Shown: one piece after another, positions 20,640-27,502 of the stretch | Position numbering within the stretch: position 1 is the first letter of the stretch | Layout of the letters: each line of letters opens with the position of its first letter | NCBI GenBank assembly: GCA_001821935.1 | Contig: MHOU01000011.1 | Coordinates: 47,022-89,441 of the forward strand | Source: Candidatus Staskawiczbacteria bacterium RIFCSPHIGHO2_02_FULL_43_16 | Lineage (GTDB): Bacteria > Patescibacteriota > Minisyncoccia > Minisyncoccales > Staskawiczbacteraceae | Direction: 5' to 3' | DNA length: 42,420 bases | Translations under genes and position numbers: made by a program | Notes under the pieces: model-generated | Database searches by the model: none | The model's input: only the letters and a program-made list of their open reading frames with translations | Told to the model about the DNA's origin: nothing

Positions 20640-21938
20640 TCAGGTTTTTGGGTCAAGAAGCGCGCGTTTTCGTACTTTCTTATGATAGGTGATGGCGAAT
20701 CTATGGGCTTCATCATCTAGTGTCACGATGACGTTATATATTTCCTGAGGCAGGTCTTTAAGCGGGATTGGTTTTTTCTGGCCTTCAATAAAAAGCTCTC
20801 GCCGTCCTTTCGCCATCGAAATTATTTTAATATTTTTTGAATTTTGGTATTGTTTGTGATTTGTATATTGTAATTTGGAATTTATAGCAACGTTAAGTTG
20901 CGCCTTTCCTCCATCAATCAGCATCACTTCCGGATATCCCCATTCCGGGTGGGCCAGCCGGCGGGTTAACACTTCCCGCAACATGGCAATGTCATTGGGT
21001 TCGTTTTTCATCCTAATGCGGAATTTTTTGTACTGGCTTTTATCCGGCGCCCCATTTTTAAAAACCACCATACTGCCCACGGCAAACTTTCCTTGAATAT
21101 TAGAAACATCGTAGCATTCAATTTTATTGATGGTGGTTTTCATACCTAAAATCTCTTGCATGATTTTTTGCGTTGTATGCCATTGATTATTGGTAATTTT
21201 TGCGCTTTCAATCACATGGGTATGTTGCATAATTTGCTCTAGCGCCCGGATTTTATCATGCACTTTTTGAGCATTCTCGTATTCTTGAGAATTTGAGAAT
21301 ACTTCCATTTCGCGCCGCAGGGCATATAGCACTGTTTTACGCTTACCCTGTAAAATTTCCATCAGCTTTTTTAAATCTTTTTTATACTCTACTACATTAG
21401 GATTAGTCCCTGGACAGAGCCCCAAATGGCACCAGGTGCATTTGTTTTTTGGATGCTTTGCACTGGTGTAATAGGGGAATACCCGTCGCAAATATTTTAG
21501 TGTTTTTTTTAGAGCGTTTCCTTCTATAAAGGGACCAATGTACTTGGTGCTTACACTATCTTTTTGATGGGTGATAAAAACAATGGGTTTTTCACTTTTG
21601 GTAATGGCAACATAAAAATAGTTCTTGCCGTCTTTCCAGACTACATTAAATTTTGGCAGATGTTTTTTTATTAAATTGGCTTCCAATACCAAGGCTTCAA
21701 TTTCGGAATTGGTATTAATGAAATCTATCTTGGTAATTTTTCCCACAAATACACTGTCTTTATAAGTCGGCTGCATGAAATGGTTTTTTACCCTATCTTT
21801 GATATTTATGGCCTTTCCTATATAAATAGGTGTTGGGTATTTGGTGTTGGGTTTTGGTTTTTCATAAAACAAATACACCCCCGCCGTTTTCGGGAGGTTA
21901 TTAATAGTGTCTTTTAATTTGGGGTTAATATCAAGCAT
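20640..21938 (-). CDS. uvrC: Excinuclease ABC subunit C, short form
   Basis: A 432-residue UvrC. The GIY-YIG nuclease domain occupies about residues 12-95 (AGVYLFY, then PIYIGKAINIKDRVKNHF) and makes the 3' incision. A cysteine cluster (KCTWCHLGLC) follows. A UVR-type helical hairpin is near residues 195-230, and the RNase H-like domain for the 5' incision ends the protein (IECYDVSNIQGKFAVGSMVVF, MLIDGGKAQL). The C-terminal tandem helix-hairpin-helix region of standard 600-residue UvrC is missing, as is common in reduced genomes. It is divergent from the DGR target gene. uvrA is also in the window (24656), about 2.7 kb away. Confidence 0.94.
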   Translation of the reverse strand: MLDINPKLKDTINNLPKTAGVYLFYEKPKPNTKYPTPIYIGKAINIKDRVKNHFMQPTYKDSVFVGKITKIDFINTNSEIEALVLEANLIKKHLPKFNVVWKDGKNYFYVAITKSEKPIVFITHQKDSVSTKYIGPFIEGNALKKTLKYLRRVFPYYTSAKHPKNKCTWCHLGLCPGTNPNVVEYKKDLKKLMEILQGKRKTVLYALRREMEVFSNSQEYENAQKVHDKIRALEQIMQHTHVIESAKITNNQWHTTQKIMQEILGMKTTINKIECYDVSNIQGKFAVGSMVVFKNGAPDKSQYKKFRIRMKNEPNDIAMLREVLTRRLAHPEWGYPEVMLIDGGKAQLNVAINSKLQYTNHKQYQNSKNIKIISMAKGRRELFIEGQKKPIPLKDLPQEIYNVIVTLDDEAHRFAITYHKKVRKRALLDPKT

Positions 21939-21980: not shown

Positions 21981-22002
21981 GGATTTTTGAATATGCTACC
22001 AT
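21974..22002 (+). promoter_or_regulatory. Promoter of the DGR target gene
   Basis: A consensus TTGACA, 17 bases, then TACCAT. The leader of about 55 bases ends in ACGGAGAAAGTC before the ATG. Confidence 0.75.
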
Positions 22003-22064
22003 GCAAGCATAGGGTAAATGGCTTATTTTAGGCTGTTCCCTAGGTACATTTTACGGAGAAAGTC

Positions 22065-22781
22065 ATGAGTGCAGATCGCATGTGTGACGATATGATCAGT
22101 TTCAGCCAAGGAGGAGAATTCCTTCGGAAATTGGTCAGCGCCGGCCTCACGAGTGAAATCGCCCAAGAGGTGATTACCTCGCGTGGCAACAAGAAAGCTA
22201 AGGCCATGATGGCGGTTCTGCAAATCGCAGACGCGCCAGCATTGGTTGAGGCATCCGTCCAGAAGTTCGAGGTCTTCAAAAACCTCGGCATCCTGACGGT
22301 GCCCGGCGATTACGTTCACGCCACGCGCCTGGCCGAGTTTTACAAGCGGCATCAGAGCGGGAAGAAAAAGTCCTTTTACTTCTATAATGAAGACATCAAG
22401 GACGAAAACTTCCCCAACCCCAGTCGTATCGTCAAGCCAGGCGATAAATTACGGGTGGATGTTTGTCGGCAAATCGTGGGTGGCGACACTGCCTCGGAAG
22501 AGCGGATGGCATTCCTGGCCAATCAGGGAGGTGTTCTCCTTGGTGCCCAAGGTGCCAGCCTGGTATTTGACGATGAGAAGATGCGCGCCGATTTGCCCAA
22601 AGGCAAGTGGTACTCGTCTTTTGACCAGCCGGAACGCCTCTGGCAGGACGCTCACCGCTACCACCGTGTGCCCTACGTCCACGCCTACTCGAATGGTGAC
22701 TTCAACTTCGACCTCGGTAACTTCGAGAAGCCATGGGACGACGACGATTGTTTCCTCCTCTTCCGCGACTCTGCGGAATAG
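22065..22781 (+). CDS. Diversity-generating retroelement target protein
   Basis: A 238-residue protein whose last 46 residues are encoded by the variable repeat. The start is set by a GGAG seven bases upstream. The N-terminal 80 residues look helical (GGEFLRKLVSAGLTSEIAQE). A middle region follows with KKKSFYFYNEDI and NPSRIVKPGDKLRVDV. The C-terminal segment LWQDAHRYHRVPYVHAYSNG to CFLLFRDSAE is the diversified face, plausibly a C-type-lectin-like fold as in other DGR targets (inference). Eleven residues differ from the template-encoded version: two His, three Tyr, one Val and five Asp where the template would give Asn (or Ile). No signal peptide or membrane helix is visible, so the ligand may be intracellular or export is by an unseen route. 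Base composition differs from neighbouring housekeeping genes. Confidence 0.9.
   Translation: MSADRMCDDMISFSQGGEFLRKLVSAGLTSEIAQEVITSRGNKKAKAMMAVLQIADAPALVEASVQKFEVFKNLGILTVPGDYVHATRLAEFYKRHQSGKKKSFYFYNEDIKDENFPNPSRIVKPGDKLRVDVCRQIVGGDTASEERMAFLANQGGVLLGAQGASLVFDDEKMRADLPKGKWYSSFDQPERLWQDAHRYHRVPYVHAYSNGDFNFDLGNFEKPWDDDDCFLLFRDSAE
22640..22771 (+). repeat. DGR variable repeat (VR)
   Basis: 132 bases aligning without gaps to the template repeat 478 bases downstream. There are 11 mismatches, and each has A in TR with C, T or G in VR (two C, three T, six G). No non-adenine position differs. It covers codons 193 to the end of the conserved block and stops 10 bases before the end of the stop codon. 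Confidence 0.97.
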
Positions 22782-22786
22782 TCCTT

Positions 22787-22800
22787 TGGCCATTAGGCCA
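22787..22800. repeat. Small hairpin just downstream of VR
   Basis: TGGCC-ATTA-GGCCA, a 5-bp stem with a 4-base loop, 15 bases after the end of VR. In the Bordetella phage DGR a small hairpin just after VR promotes retrohoming; equivalence here is inference. Confidence 0.5.
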
Positions 22801-22825
22801 TATGAAAAGTTCTTTCGTTTCTTTG

Positions 22826-22870
22826 GCCCTTCATCTTGTTGCGCGCAACAAGATGAAGGGCTTCTTTTTT
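22826..22870 (+). terminator. 36-base perfect palindrome and terminator after the DGR target gene
   Basis: The two 18-base arms (22826-22843 and 22844-22861, arm starting GCCCTTCATC) are exactly complementary, followed by a T-rich tract. It is a strong terminator; as DNA it could also extrude as a cruciform close to VR. Confidence 0.85.
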
Positions 22871-22942
22871 TCTAAAAAGTATGTATACTACAATCCAGAA
22901 TGAGACAGACTATGCGGCTACGGTTTCATAGTATCAAGTTCA

Positions 22943-23117
22943 CGTAAAAGGAATTCGCCAGAATCCCGTTGGGCATTGCTTTGCGGGCGCGAGCGCCCTT
23001 TTACGAAAAAAAATAACAGAGTCGGTGCAACACACTAATGCATATAAGATGCAGAGTAAAATTCAGGGCGCGGCCAATGGCTGTTCCCGGTGGAACAGGT
23101 GGTGTGTTGTATATTTG
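22943..23117 (+). ncRNA. Structured leader upstream of the template repeat (part of TR RNA)
   Basis: No gene is visible here, but pairing is dense. CGTAAAAGG (22943-22951) pairs with CCTTTTACG (22997-23005). CAACACAC (23028-23035) pairs with GTGTGTTG (23102-23109) and encloses two hairpins, TGCAT-ATAAG-ATGCA (23039-23053) and CTGTTCC-CGGT-GGAACAG (23081-23098). The second domain ends eight bases before TR. A weak promoter candidate (TATACT/TACAAT overlap, 22884-22894) lies upstream. Likely the 5' part of the TR transcript. Confidence 0.55.
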
Positions 23118-23249
23118 CTGGCAGGACGCTAACCGCAACCACCGTGTGCCCAACATCAACGCCAACTCGAATGGTGACTTCAACTTCAACCTCGGTAACT
23201 TCGAGAAGCCATGGAACGACAACAATTGTTTCCTCCTCTTCCGCAACTC
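23118..23249 (+). repeat. DGR template repeat (TR)
   Basis: 132 bases containing 36 adenines, the RNA template for mutagenic reverse transcription. In the frame of the target gene the variable codons are nearly all AAC or AAT, with one ATC, the pattern that allows randomisation without creating stop codons. It lies between the target gene and the reverse transcriptase gene, on the same strand as both. Confidence 0.97.
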
Positions 23250-23264
23250 ATGCATTTTCTCCTG

Positions 23265-23654
23265 TCATTTTCTGGCGGGAGTTTTTTCTTCAATGCTACG
23301 CTTCCAGCCACCGAGCATTCTTCCCACTTCTTCTAATAGTAAAATAAGGCTACCGTATTGCTTATTATCTATGATTTTTTGTTCCCAGCTAATTTGCAGG
23401 AAAAACCGCAGCACATCGCACTTGGCGATGGCTTGGGAGACCAAGGATAATTTCTCAAATTTATCATAGGCGAAACAGCCTCGGTAAACTAGTTCTAGAA
23501 GGGCGCAGAATAATTCGTCAATTTTTACTCCCAAGGTATGGCGGTCAATTCGCGTTAAGTTATCTAAGTCGTCATGCCAAACTCGGTAGGCCTCTTTTGT
23601 CCTAACTAACACCATAGGGATTTTCGAACGATTGGGGGGGGGGTTAATAGCCAT
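23265..23654 (-). CDS. avd: Avd-like four-helix-bundle accessory protein of the DGR
   Basis: A 129-residue helical protein of the Avd/S23-like four-helix-bundle group. Recognisable features are IPMVLVRTKEAYRVW, RIDRHTLGVKIDELF, and ISWEQKIIDNKQYGSLILLL. In known DGRs a pentameric Avd binds the reverse transcriptase and TR RNA. I chose the ATG at 23654, giving MAINPPPN before the conserved region. The three prolines are encoded by a run of ten C residues, a slippage-prone tract. Orientation is unusual: it is antisense to TR and RT, its 3' end is 15 bases from TR, and its start is three bases from the RT start. Confidence 0.85.
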   Translation of the reverse strand: MAINPPPNRSKIPMVLVRTKEAYRVWHDDLDNLTRIDRHTLGVKIDELFCALLELVYRGCFAYDKFEKLSLVSQAIAKCDVLRFFLQISWEQKIIDNKQYGSLILLLEEVGRMLGGWKRSIEEKTPARK

Positions 23655-23657
23655 ACA

Positions 23658-24629
23658 ATGTTTGTAAAAAAGTATAATGATATTATTACGATTGAAAATA
23701 TCCTTACCGCCTGGCAAGGGTTTTTACGTGGCAAGCGGTATAAAAAAGATGTGATTGAATTTCAGGCTTCGCTTTCCCAGAACTTGGCTTTGCTTCATGG
23801 CGACCTTCAAAACAAAACATATCAGCACGGGCCGTATGTTGCCTTTAATATTTCCGATCCCAAGCCGCGCAATATCCATAAAGCTACGGTACGCGACAGG
23901 ATTGTACACCATATCATATACAAAGAATTATATCCATATTTTGAACCACGCTTTATTTATGATTCGTATTCGTGCAGGATTGCTAAGGGTACGCATCGGG
24001 CTTTGGATAGATTTCACAAATTTGCCGGCCAAGTTTCCCGCAACCATACGCAAGGCTGTTTTGTTTTAAAATGCGATGTGCGCAAATTTTTTGCCAGCAT
24101 TGACCAGGCGGTGCTTATGGGAATACTGAGCCGGCACATTGAAGATGGTGCAATATTAGCCTTACTTAAAGAAGTTATTTCTTCTTTTCCTGCGGGATTG
24201 CCGTTGGGAAATTTAACTTCACAGCTGTTGGTAAATATTTATATGCATGAGTTTGATATGTTCATGAAGCAGGAGTTACGGGTTGCCTATTACATCAGGT
24301 ACGCTGATGATTTTGTTACGTTATCTGTCGATAAAACATACTTGAAGCAGGTGCTTGGGCAAATTGAAACCTTTTTAAGGGGAAAGCTTCATCTAACTCT
24401 CCATCCTGACAAAGTGTACATCAAAACCTATGCCTCGGGGGTGGATTTTTTGGGCTGGGTCCATTTTCCGCATCATCGCCAGATCAGGAAAACTACCAAG
24501 AAAAAAATCCTGCGCAACACTAAACATTTCCCAAGGCCGCAAACAGTTAATTCTTATCGTGGATTGCTGGCGCATGGCAACACGTACAAGGTGCAAAAGG
24601 CCGCGGGGATTACTATTGATTTTAGTTAA
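23658..24629 (+). CDS. DGR reverse transcriptase
   Basis: A 323-residue reverse transcriptase, complete. Motif A is KCDVRKFFASID with catalytic Asp at residue 140. The DGR-diagnostic motif 4 reads LPLGNLTSQ (residues 181-189), where most other RTs have a QG pair. The catalytic YADD box is at 215-218. The fingers block RDRIVHHIIYKELYP and FLGW after the active site are also typical. There is no extra nuclease or maturase domain, as expected for DGRs. The start has no clear Shine-Dalgarno other than the G-run at 23634-23643. The uvrA promoter overlaps the 3' end of the gene. Confidence 0.97.
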   Translation: MFVKKYNDIITIENILTAWQGFLRGKRYKKDVIEFQASLSQNLALLHGDLQNKTYQHGPYVAFNISDPKPRNIHKATVRDRIVHHIIYKELYPYFEPRFIYDSYSCRIAKGTHRALDRFHKFAGQVSRNHTQGCFVLKCDVRKFFASIDQAVLMGILSRHIEDGAILALLKEVISSFPAGLPLGNLTSQLLVNIYMHEFDMFMKQELRVAYYIRYADDFVTLSVDKTYLKQVLGQIETFLRGKLHLTLHPDKVYIKTYASGVDFLGWVHFPHHRQIRKTTKKKILRNTKHFPRPQTVNSYRGLLAHGNTYKVQKAAGITIDFS

Positions 24630-24644
24630 AATGCGAGATACAAT
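24616..24644 (+). promoter_or_regulatory. Promoter of uvrA
   Basis: TTGATT, 17 bases, then TACAAT. The -35 box is in the last codons of the RT gene and the predicted start is about 4 bases before the uvrA ATG. Confidence 0.65.
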
Positions 24645-24655
24645 GGTGTATTTCC

Positions 24656-27502
24656 ATGCAAAACGAATTCATTAAAATCAGAGGGGCGCGAGCTCACAAT
24701 TTAAAAAATATTGACTTGGATATCCCCAAAAACAAACTGGTGGTGATTACGGGTTTGTCTGGTTCGGGAAAATCTTCATTGGCGTTTGATACGTTGTACG
24801 CCGAAGGACAGCGCCGGTATGTGGAAAGTTTGTCGGCCTATGCCCGGCAATTTTTGGGCGTGATGGACAAGCCGGACGTTGATAAAATAGAAGGTATCAG
24901 CCCAGCTATTGCCATTGACCAGCGAAAATCGGTGCATAATCCGCGTTCAACCGTGGGGACTATTACAGAGATTTATGATTACCTGCGGCTTTTGTATGCC
25001 CGTATTGGAAAACCGCATTGCCCCAGTTGCAAAAAATTAATTTCACGCCAAACCATAGATCAAATCGTGGAGCAGGTTTTGAAGATAAAATCGGGAAGTG
25101 AAATTATGGTGCTGGGGCCGGTAATTCGTGCCAAAAAGGGGGAACACCAGGCGGTGCTGGAAGAAATACAGCGGGCCGGGTTTATCCGGGTGCGCATTGA
25201 TGGTGATTTGTACCCCATTGAAGAGGCGCTGTTTAGGCCTTTGGAAAAAAATAAAAAACATAGCATTGAAGCGGTGGTTGATAGGCTGGTTTTACCTGCC
25301 CGCCGAAGCCTTGGCGAAGGAGGGGAAAAAGAGTTAGACCGCTCGCGCCTGGTTGATTCCCTGGAAACCGCGTTAAAATTGGGCAAGGGAATAGTAATCG
25401 TAAACACCAAGAAACAAGATGCAAAAACCAAACTAGGAGATTTGATTTTTTCTGAACATTTCGCTTGTGAGGATTGCGGCATTTCATTGCCTGAACTGGA
25501 ACCCCGGACTTTTTCATTTAATAACCCTTATGGCGCTTGCCCCAATTGCACCGGCCTGGGTGAGAAACTGGAAGTTGATCCGGCCCTGGTGATGCCCAAT
25601 AAAAATTTGAGCATTTCCGAGGGCGCTATTTTTCCGTGGAGCCGCGCCAGCCATAAAGTGGGCCGCCAGGGTTATTATTTTTATAAACTGCAAGAACTGG
25701 CGCACGCGCACCATTTTTCATTGGATGTGCCGGTAAAAGATTTGCCAGCAAAGATTATTGAAATTATTTTGCATGGGGATAATGGGGGTTTTGAAGGCGT
25801 AGTGCAAAATTTACAGCGCCGCTACCATGGCAGCGATTCAGAGTGGACGCGGGCGGAAATTGAGCAATACATGATGGTAAAAATGTGCGAAGTTTGCAAA
25901 GGCAAACGGTTAAAACCGGAGGTTTTGGCGGTTACTGTGGGCGATAAGTCTATTGATAATATCGTAGAAATGCCTGTAGAAAAGCTACAAGATTTTTTTG
26001 TAGGTTTGCAAAAAAATCTTGCCGCGGGTGAAACCAAAATCAGCGCGCCCATTACCAAAGAAATCATTGACCGGACCCAATTTTTAATTGACGTGGGTTT
26101 AAATTACTTGAATTTAGACCGCAAAGCCGGCACGCTTTCGGGCGGGGAAGAGCAGCGCATAAGGCTGGCCACCCAAATTGGTTCAAAATTATCCGGGGTG
26201 CTTTACATTTTAGACGAGCCTTCTATTGGTTTGCACGCCCGCGACCAGCAGCGCTTAATTGACACACTGCTTCAATTGCGCGATTTGGGAAATACGGTCA
26301 TTGTGGTGGAACACGATTCTCAAACCATGATGGCCAGCGATTGGATTTTTGACATTGGCCCGGGTGCCGGAAAACACGGCGGCAAAGTGATGTTTGCCGG
26401 AACGCCCAAAGCATTGCTTAAGTCCAACACCCTGACGGGAAAATATTTGTCGGGCCGGTTAAAAGTTGACAGTCAAGAAACAAGAAACAAGATACAAGAA
26501 ACAAACACGCTGCAAAAGTACTTGGAAATTAAGGGGGCGGCAGAGCATAACTTAAAAAACATTGATGTGAAGTTCCCGCTGGGCAAATTTATTTGCGTGA
26601 CGGGGGTTTCGGGGTCTGGGAAATCTTCTTTGGTTTCTGATATTTTAGCCAAGGCGCTTTTAAAACAATTTTACCGCGCCAAAGAAGAGCCGGGTTTGCA
26701 TAAAGAAGTTTTGGGAACCCAGCACATTGATAAAGTGGTGCTGGTTGACCAGTCTCCCATTGGCCGGACGCCGCGCTCAAATCCTGCCACCTATACGGGC
26801 GCGTTTTCATTTATCCGTGACATTTTTACCCAAACTTCAGAGGCCAAAGTGCGCGGTTACGGGCCAGGAAGGTTCAGTTTTAACGTCAAAGGCGGCCGGT
26901 GCGAAGCTTGCGAAGGCCAGGGGGTCAAGAAAGTGGAGATGTATTTTTTACCGGATATTTATGTGGAGTGCGAAGAATGCAAGGGCAAGCGGTATAGCCG
27001 CGAGGTGCTGGAAATTTTATACAAAGACAAAAACATCGCCGACATTTTGAAAATGACCATTGAAGAAGCCGAAGTATTTTTCAAGCATATTCCCGGCGTG
27101 AGCGATAAAATGAAAACGCTTTGCGAGGTGGGATTGTCTTACGTGGAATTAGGGCAGGCGGCCACTTCGCTTTCCGGCGGAGAGGCCCAGCGCATCAAAT
27201 TGGCCACGGAACTTTCCCGCCGCGGCACGGGCAAGACGCTGTATATTTTAGACGAACCCACCACCGGCTTGCATTTTGAAGACATTAAAAAATTGGTTTC
27301 CGTTTTGCGCAGTTTGGTTGATCGGGGGAACACGGTGCTGACCATTGAACACAATCAGGATTTCATCGGATGCGTGGATCATATTATTGATTTAGGCCCC
27401 GAGGGCGGTGAAAGAGGCGGCCAGATTATTGCGGAAGGCAGCCCGGCCGAAATTATGAAAGTCAAGAAAAGTTACACTGGTAAATATTTGAAAAGTATGT
27501 AA
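24656..27502 (+). CDS. uvrA: Excinuclease ABC subunit A
   Basis: A 948-residue UvrA, the damage-sensing ABC ATPase of nucleotide excision repair. Walker A loops are GLSGSGKS (residues 33-40) and GVSGSGKS in the second half. ABC signatures LSGGEEQRIRLATQ and LSGGEAQRIKLATE and both ILDEP Walker B boxes are present. Zinc modules use CPSC, CEDC/CPNC and CEAC/CEEC pairs. Two stretches look inserted: PARRSLGEGG near residues 214-223, encoded by a GC-rich palindrome (25295-25324) just after the conserved VVDRLV block, and a simple repeat-encoded linker (26473-26503) between the two halves. Both keep the frame. Confidence 0.97.
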   Translation: MQNEFIKIRGARAHNLKNIDLDIPKNKLVVITGLSGSGKSSLAFDTLYAEGQRRYVESLSAYARQFLGVMDKPDVDKIEGISPAIAIDQRKSVHNPRSTVGTITEIYDYLRLLYARIGKPHCPSCKKLISRQTIDQIVEQVLKIKSGSEIMVLGPVIRAKKGEHQAVLEEIQRAGFIRVRIDGDLYPIEEALFRPLEKNKKHSIEAVVDRLVLPARRSLGEGGEKELDRSRLVDSLETALKLGKGIVIVNTKKQDAKTKLGDLIFSEHFACEDCGISLPELEPRTFSFNNPYGACPNCTGLGEKLEVDPALVMPNKNLSISEGAIFPWSRASHKVGRQGYYFYKLQELAHAHHFSLDVPVKDLPAKIIEIILHGDNGGFEGVVQNLQRRYHGSDSEWTRAEIEQYMMVKMCEVCKGKRLKPEVLAVTVGDKSIDNIVEMPVEKLQDFFVGLQKNLAAGETKISAPITKEIIDRTQFLIDVGLNYLNLDRKAGTLSGGEEQRIRLATQIGSKLSGVLYILDEPSIGLHARDQQRLIDTLLQLRDLGNTVIVVEHDSQTMMASDWIFDIGPGAGKHGGKVMFAGTPKALLKSNTLTGKYLSGRLKVDSQETRNKIQETNTLQKYLEIKGAAEHNLKNIDVKFPLGKFICVTGVSGSGKSSLVSDILAKALLKQFYRAKEEPGLHKEVLGTQHIDKVVLVDQSPIGRTPRSNPATYTGAFSFIRDIFTQTSEAKVRGYGPGRFSFNVKGGRCEACEGQGVKKVEMYFLPDIYVECEECKGKRYSREVLEILYKDKNIADILKMTIEEAEVFFKHIPGVSDKMKTLCEVGLSYVELGQAATSLSGGEAQRIKLATELSRRGTGKTLYILDEPTTGLHFEDIKKLVSVLRSLVDRGNTVLTIEHNQDFIGCVDHIIDLGPEGGERGGQIIAEGSPAEIMKVKKSYTGKYLKSM
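25295..25324. repeat. Palindromic repeat inside uvrA
   Basis: A GC-rich segment with the arms GCC-AAG/CTT-GGC around a single C (one bulged G), flanked by CCTGCC and GGAGGG. It encodes PARRSLGEGG at a place where UvrA proteins normally pass directly from DRLV to the RSRLVDSLETAL block. Confidence 0.6.
26473..26503 (+). repeat. Simple CAAGAAA-type repeat in the uvrA linker
   Basis: Four imperfect units of CAAGAAA/CAAGATA encode the hydrophilic linker SQETRNKIQETN between the two ATPase halves. It probably arose by slippage or repeat insertion. Confidence 0.6.

Follow-up and report, generated by a model that had tools for sequence, protein, structure and literature searches.

A complete diversity-generating retroelement in a Patescibacteria genome and a putative slippage switch in its antisense avd gene

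The window, i.e., the whole stretch of 42,420 nucleotides analysed here, holds a diversity-generating retroelement (DGR) that is made up of the following features.

22065..22781, plus strand: target gene, 238 aa, with a diversified C-terminus; the open reading frame was confirmed.
22640..22771, plus strand: variable repeat (VR); its differences from the template repeat lie at template adenines in 11/11 cases.
22826..22861, plus strand: perfect 18 bp inverted repeat, loopless, 54 nt past the VR and followed by a T-rich stretch.
23118..23249, plus strand: template repeat (TR), non-coding; the VR is the sole other copy in the genome.
23265..23654, minus strand: avd, 129 aa (MAINPPPNRSKIPMVLV...GRMLGGW...), antisense to the RT leader; a Pfam bAvd match.
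23634..23643, G10 on the plus strand and C10 on the minus strand: homopolymer tract, read as Pro-Pro-Pro in Avd; the proposed slippage switch.
23652..23654, minus strand: Avd start codon ATG (CAT on the plus strand), 8 nt from the tract.
23658..24629, plus strand: DGR reverse transcriptase (RT), 323 aa, beginning 3 nt away from the divergent start of avd.

By eye, the element is flanked by a uvrC-like gene on the minus strand (20640-21938) and a uvrA-like gene on the plus strand (24656-27502). A sequence-only reading of this DNA had reported a complete DGR, and the coordinates it gave for VR and TR proved exact, and the open reading frames of the target and the RT are both real. Recomputed over the 132 gapless nucleotides, the alignment of VR and TR gave the same 11 differences, all of them at TR adenines; adenine occupies 36 of the 132 positions, and the hypergeometric probability that all 11 fall there by chance is 1.7e-7. 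No non-adenine position of the VR is altered relative to the TR in the window, a kind of change that the reading had named as counting against a DGR. The RT, called DGR-type from its GNLTSQ and YADD motifs, has 8ub7, which we take to be the BPP-1 bRT, as its best solved relative (phmmer, E 1.7e-43), followed by a group II intron RT (E 9.6e-18); it matches Pfam RVT_1 (E 3.5e-19) and groups with RTs that have TR/VR pairs, so that a retron or group II intron type of RT, the other result held to count against a DGR, was not what was found. The Avd-like protein seen alongside is likewise real, with 48.4 bits against Pfam bAvd (cut-off 40, E 1.4e-12) and E 7.5e-15 against NCBIfam DivGenRetAVD, under that model's cut-off; its gene is encoded on the minus strand, in the interval from TR to RT; the reading did not mention this strand. 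The inverted repeat sits where the post-VR stem-loop of known DGRs sits, and it could alternatively be a terminator; no known RNA families were found in 22000-24700. As RT, Avd, target, adenine-only TR/VR pair and inverted repeat after the VR are all present, the element is a genuine, complete DGR. The claim of completeness is therefore borne out, but as a description the reading was incomplete, since the antisense orientation of avd, the poly-G tract and five other DGRs in the genome had been missed. Adenine-directed copying from TR to VR is the known DGR mechanism, and the anatomy and the adenine signature suggest that it also operates here: RT and Avd would copy TR RNA with errors opposite adenines, and the cDNA would take the place of the VR in the last part of the target gene.

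In its adenine-only TR/VR pair, RT, Avd, diversified C-terminus and inverted repeat after the VR the element is like the DGR of the Bordetella phage BPP-1. The BPP-1 genes avd and brt share a single operon and strand with the TR (PMC12875486); the avd of the window, by contrast, is placed between TR and RT in antisense orientation, and a homopolymer runs through its first codons. The element is also like the Patescibacteria (CPR) DGRs of clade 2 of Roux et al. (2021; PMC8144416), which are cell-encoded, belong to the same bacterial group and have targets without recognised domains; Patescibacteria have been described as DGR-enriched (PMC8144416).

The source assembly (740,502 bp in 12 contigs, 95% complete) encodes six DGR-type RTs, and these belong to six complete DGRs, each with its own TR/VR pair; TR adenines account for 100 of the 101 mismatches in the pairs. 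The size of the genome and the named relatives of its DGR RTs point to a Patescibacterium as host. Besides the element in the window, the genome (G000) holds the following DGRs.

C12:112714-113712: DGR L009.
C12:82197-83231: DGR L010.
C2:606-1646: DGR L011.
C2:103370-104398: DGR L012.
C6:5732-6649: DGR L013.

An avd gene was undetectable in four of these five. Many relatives within the same order have one to seven RT-profile matches per genome, and the 127 TR/VR pairs among the collected loci have 2,071 of 2,117 mismatches at TR adenines, a biased rate because the TR/VR finder favours pairs with adenine mismatches. Two loci from two genomes, L091 and L092, have a target of the same family as that in the window and share a near-identical cassette of ~2.6 kb between flanks that are much more different, which points to a recent transfer of the whole DGR. 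Across the repeat the two TRs are identical; of the 19 positions that separate the two VRs, 18 face TR adenines. This is the outcome that the sequence-only reading had proposed to look for in sister genomes. Its further suggestion of recent or ongoing activity is thus shown for the family, and for the copy in the window it is inferred.

The target has relatives among the DGR targets of other Patescibacteria loci (L079-L096 and L120; E 1e-25 to 1e-59), homologues that were reached by RT-based retrieval. A search with 8-residue patterns of the target against GTDB and viral contigs gave no homologues, no family assignment was obtained for the protein, and a PDB search with the target profile gave no significant match. 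The AlphaFold model has pLDDT >90 over most of residues 68-238; fold searches with this model in two libraries gave no significant match, C-type lectins being the best weak matches in both. Kinship of the target (P0001) with EF-Tu was considered on the ground that residues 98-166 match EF-Tu domain 3 (two genomes, E 1e-4), and the match was dismissed as chance since the model has helices at 144-176 and EF-Tu is absent among the listed fold matches. The G+C content is 55% in the target gene, 44% in the window and 42% in the RT gene.

The changes in the window VR are unevenly placed within codons, affecting 11 of 15 adenines at first positions and 0 of 20 at second positions. Ten of them convert AAC or AAT codons to Tyr, His or Asp codons; the remaining one turns ATC into GTC. 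This VR stands alone among the 127 pairs in having at least 6 mutated AAY codons and no second-position change; at a single locus the chance of the pattern is 2e-3 to 2e-4, which is suggestive rather than firm as 127 loci were inspected. In four of the genome's other DGRs, those with a clear VR frame, both adenines of AAY codons are mutated (DGR E4, at a contig edge, was left out of this comparison), and the BPP-1 RT also mutates the second A (PMC12875486), unlike what is found in the window VR. A context rule by which the RT would mutate an A followed by A was rejected: the mutated ATC codon argues against it, as do the second-position changes made by other RTs in the family. Since such changes are found in this clade, selection for Asn to Asp, His or Tyr, or else chance, is a more likely cause of the pattern than a rule of the RT.

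Besides the G10 tract, which as C10 lies at Avd codons 4-7, the 42-kb window has no run of at least seven G or C. Four of the five further DGRs of the genome have G9-11 at the equivalent position, at the RT start or just ahead of it, i.e., five of its six DGRs have the tract, and 5 of the 8 tracts of G9 or longer in this genome are located at DGR RTs. The upstream sequence was long enough for this comparison at 160 loci, of which 115 have G7 or longer, 2 have G6 and 4 have GA repeats. In related Patescibacteria DGRs the tract is 7-14 long, mostly 9-11, where a homopolymer length taken from a single assembly may be off by one. By comparison, the tract is present in 1 of 69 DGR loci from viral contigs and in 0 of 11 Patescibacteria DGRs that have avd on the RT strand. 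It is conserved across RTs that share ~50% identity. GA dinucleotide repeats of up to 32 nt replace the poly-G at the RT start in L128, L139, L143 and L029, and as three (GA)n loci are nested in the poly-G clade of the RT tree it is a simple repeat, and not G as such, that has been kept. At three loci where the tract is broken (L047, L049 and L156) the Pro residues and the frame are retained. Two other roles were considered for the poly-G and rejected, namely those of a purine-rich ribosome site and of a structural part of the TR RNA: its spacing to the RT start is highly variable, and its distance to the TR depends on whether avd is present.

Two further tracts may be mentioned in their own right. 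In L069 (C12:98917-98925) a G9 follows an ATG close to the 5' end of a GNAT-like acetyltransferase frame, and this is a possible second phase-variable gene; in L075 (C12:142380-142389) an intergenic G10 lies upstream of a NUDIX-like gene and is followed by TATTATAAG.

The avd gene in the window is in frame (ON) at its tract length of 10, and lengths of 8, 9, 11 or 12 truncate the protein after 15-17 aa. Across loci the frame is random. Among antisense avd loci with a tract, the Avd core is in frame with an ATG in 34 of 110, one third being 36.7 (p 0.61), whereas antisense avd loci that lack a tract have an upstream ATG in frame in 26 of 28 cases; when counted previously, at a cut-off that differed slightly, 35/112 vs 24/26 were in frame (Fisher p 8e-9). 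The Pro codons of the run precede the Avd core by a few residues. None of the 110 tract loci was found to have an ATG in the interval from the tract to the aligned core, and in all 110 an open ATG, in one of the frames, lies past the tract. This far-side ATG is usually antisense to a histidine codon near the RT N-terminus, and the histidine is encoded by CAT in 97 of 102 cases, compared with 63% for other RT histidines (p 1.5e-13). In the window, avd has a second in-frame ATG past the tract, at codon 14, so that a restart at this codon is possible. Eight DGRs, four in this genome and four in relatives, have no detectable avd. In these the tract (GA in one, G otherwise) lies inside the RT coding sequence, with conserved RT residues directly after it; 3 of the 8 RTs have an in-frame ATG ahead of the tract. 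As the tract is within the RT frame where avd is absent, the switch seems to have passed from avd to the RT in this small sample.

The ON/OFF state is also labile. On a tree of 156 RTs at least 28 ON/OFF changes are needed for the 32 in-frame rows, as compared with 29.2 for shuffled labels. The presence of the tract is clustered on the tree (13 changes), and so is the tract-free in-frame label (13 changes vs 23.5 when shuffled). In the nearest relative of the window RT, L078 (73% identical), avd is out of frame with a G8 tract; in the window it is in frame with G10. Sister pairs one base apart are L028/L030 (9/10) and L115/L124 (9/10); L091/L092, the one near-identical pair, has equal tract lengths, which speaks against phase variation.

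Neisseria, Helicobacter and Campylobacter have phase-variable loci with poly-G/C tracts, known as contingency loci, in which an ATG and a few codons are followed by a homopolymer of 8-12 and then by the protein core, and in which the frame is random between relatives. The loci described here are similar in having a simple repeat in the 5' coding part and a frame state that is random between relatives. They differ in that the gene to be switched is a mutator of another gene, giving two nested layers of variation, and in that they are known from assemblies with one tract length each. Judged from these sequence patterns, the element is quite probably a DGR with a phase-variable mutator that is turned on and off by slippage. 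The avd gene would consist of an ATG beside the RT start, 7-14 C within the first codons and then the Avd core, and a base gained or lost in the tract by slipped-strand mispairing would put the core out of frame. Cells would then toggle between mutating and non-mutating states, and in DGRs that have lost avd the tract in the RT reading frame would do the switching. We infer that slippage takes place at the DNA level in populations and that it controls mutagenesis; in BPP-1 Avd is essential, and its inactivation drops retrohoming to ~1e-9 (PMC12875486).

The tract could instead be a site of slippage for RNA polymerase or the ribosome, so that every cell would make a mixture of frames and Avd would always be low and tuned, with no switch. 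It fits such a mechanism that the conserved length range is 9-11 and that VRs of out-of-frame loci are as diversified as those of in-frame loci, with 54.5% of TR adenines changed at OFF loci vs 54.0% at ON loci (p 0.57), a similarity that would also be expected from DNA switching which is fast relative to VR turnover, or from a leaky OFF state. The frame offsets among the histidine-antisense starts are uneven (33/17/10), +1 being commonest, and this unevenness, together with the codon-14 ATG in the window, counts against phase variation. Programmed frameshifting, however, needs a constant frame, whereas all three frames occur here and one third of the loci are in frame; moreover, ON and OFF are labile on the RT tree and some loci have GA repeats in place of G. 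We therefore consider expression by slippage unlikely. It is decidedly improbable that the tract controls the divergent avd and RT genes as a DNA or RNA element, through promoter spacing or leader structure, with Avd translated from a non-ATG start downstream and its frame incidental. The location of the tract between two divergent starts, and hairpin-like sequences that by eye adjoin it in many loci, are consistent with such a role, but 26 of the 110 tract loci are without an in-frame start codon of any kind, the tract-free antisense avd genes do keep an in-frame upstream ATG (26/28), and in avd-less DGRs the tract is inside the RT coding sequence. That the DGR is an ordinary one and the tract a neutral homopolymer or an assembly error is barely credible and already contradicted, for although assembly of homopolymers is error-prone, the tract recurs at the same place in >110 loci from many Patescibacteria genomes, of the runs of eight or more G or C in these loci (841 kb) 112 lie at the RT-start spot and 4 elsewhere, and the tract is kept across RTs of ~50% identity.

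Phase variation of the mutator thus remains the preferred reading, and it probably extends beyond this locus: across a large Patescibacteria clade, slippage of a homopolymer or GA repeat in avd, or in the RT if avd is lost, would switch the DGR on and off stochastically, and one cell may hold several DGRs that are switched independently. In the open-access papers that were searched, no description was found of a poly-G tract, phase variation or switching in DGRs, and the regulation of DGRs in the wild has been called a frontier (PMC12875486). If the proposal is true, gene predictions for these avd genes and for some RT genes would often be wrong, as about two thirds of the tract-bearing avd copies are out of frame in the assembly. 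A slippage switch would be a simple answer to the question of how DGRs of this Patescibacteria clade turn on. A population would be mostly non-mutating and would always contain a mutating minority, with locked loci occurring as well.
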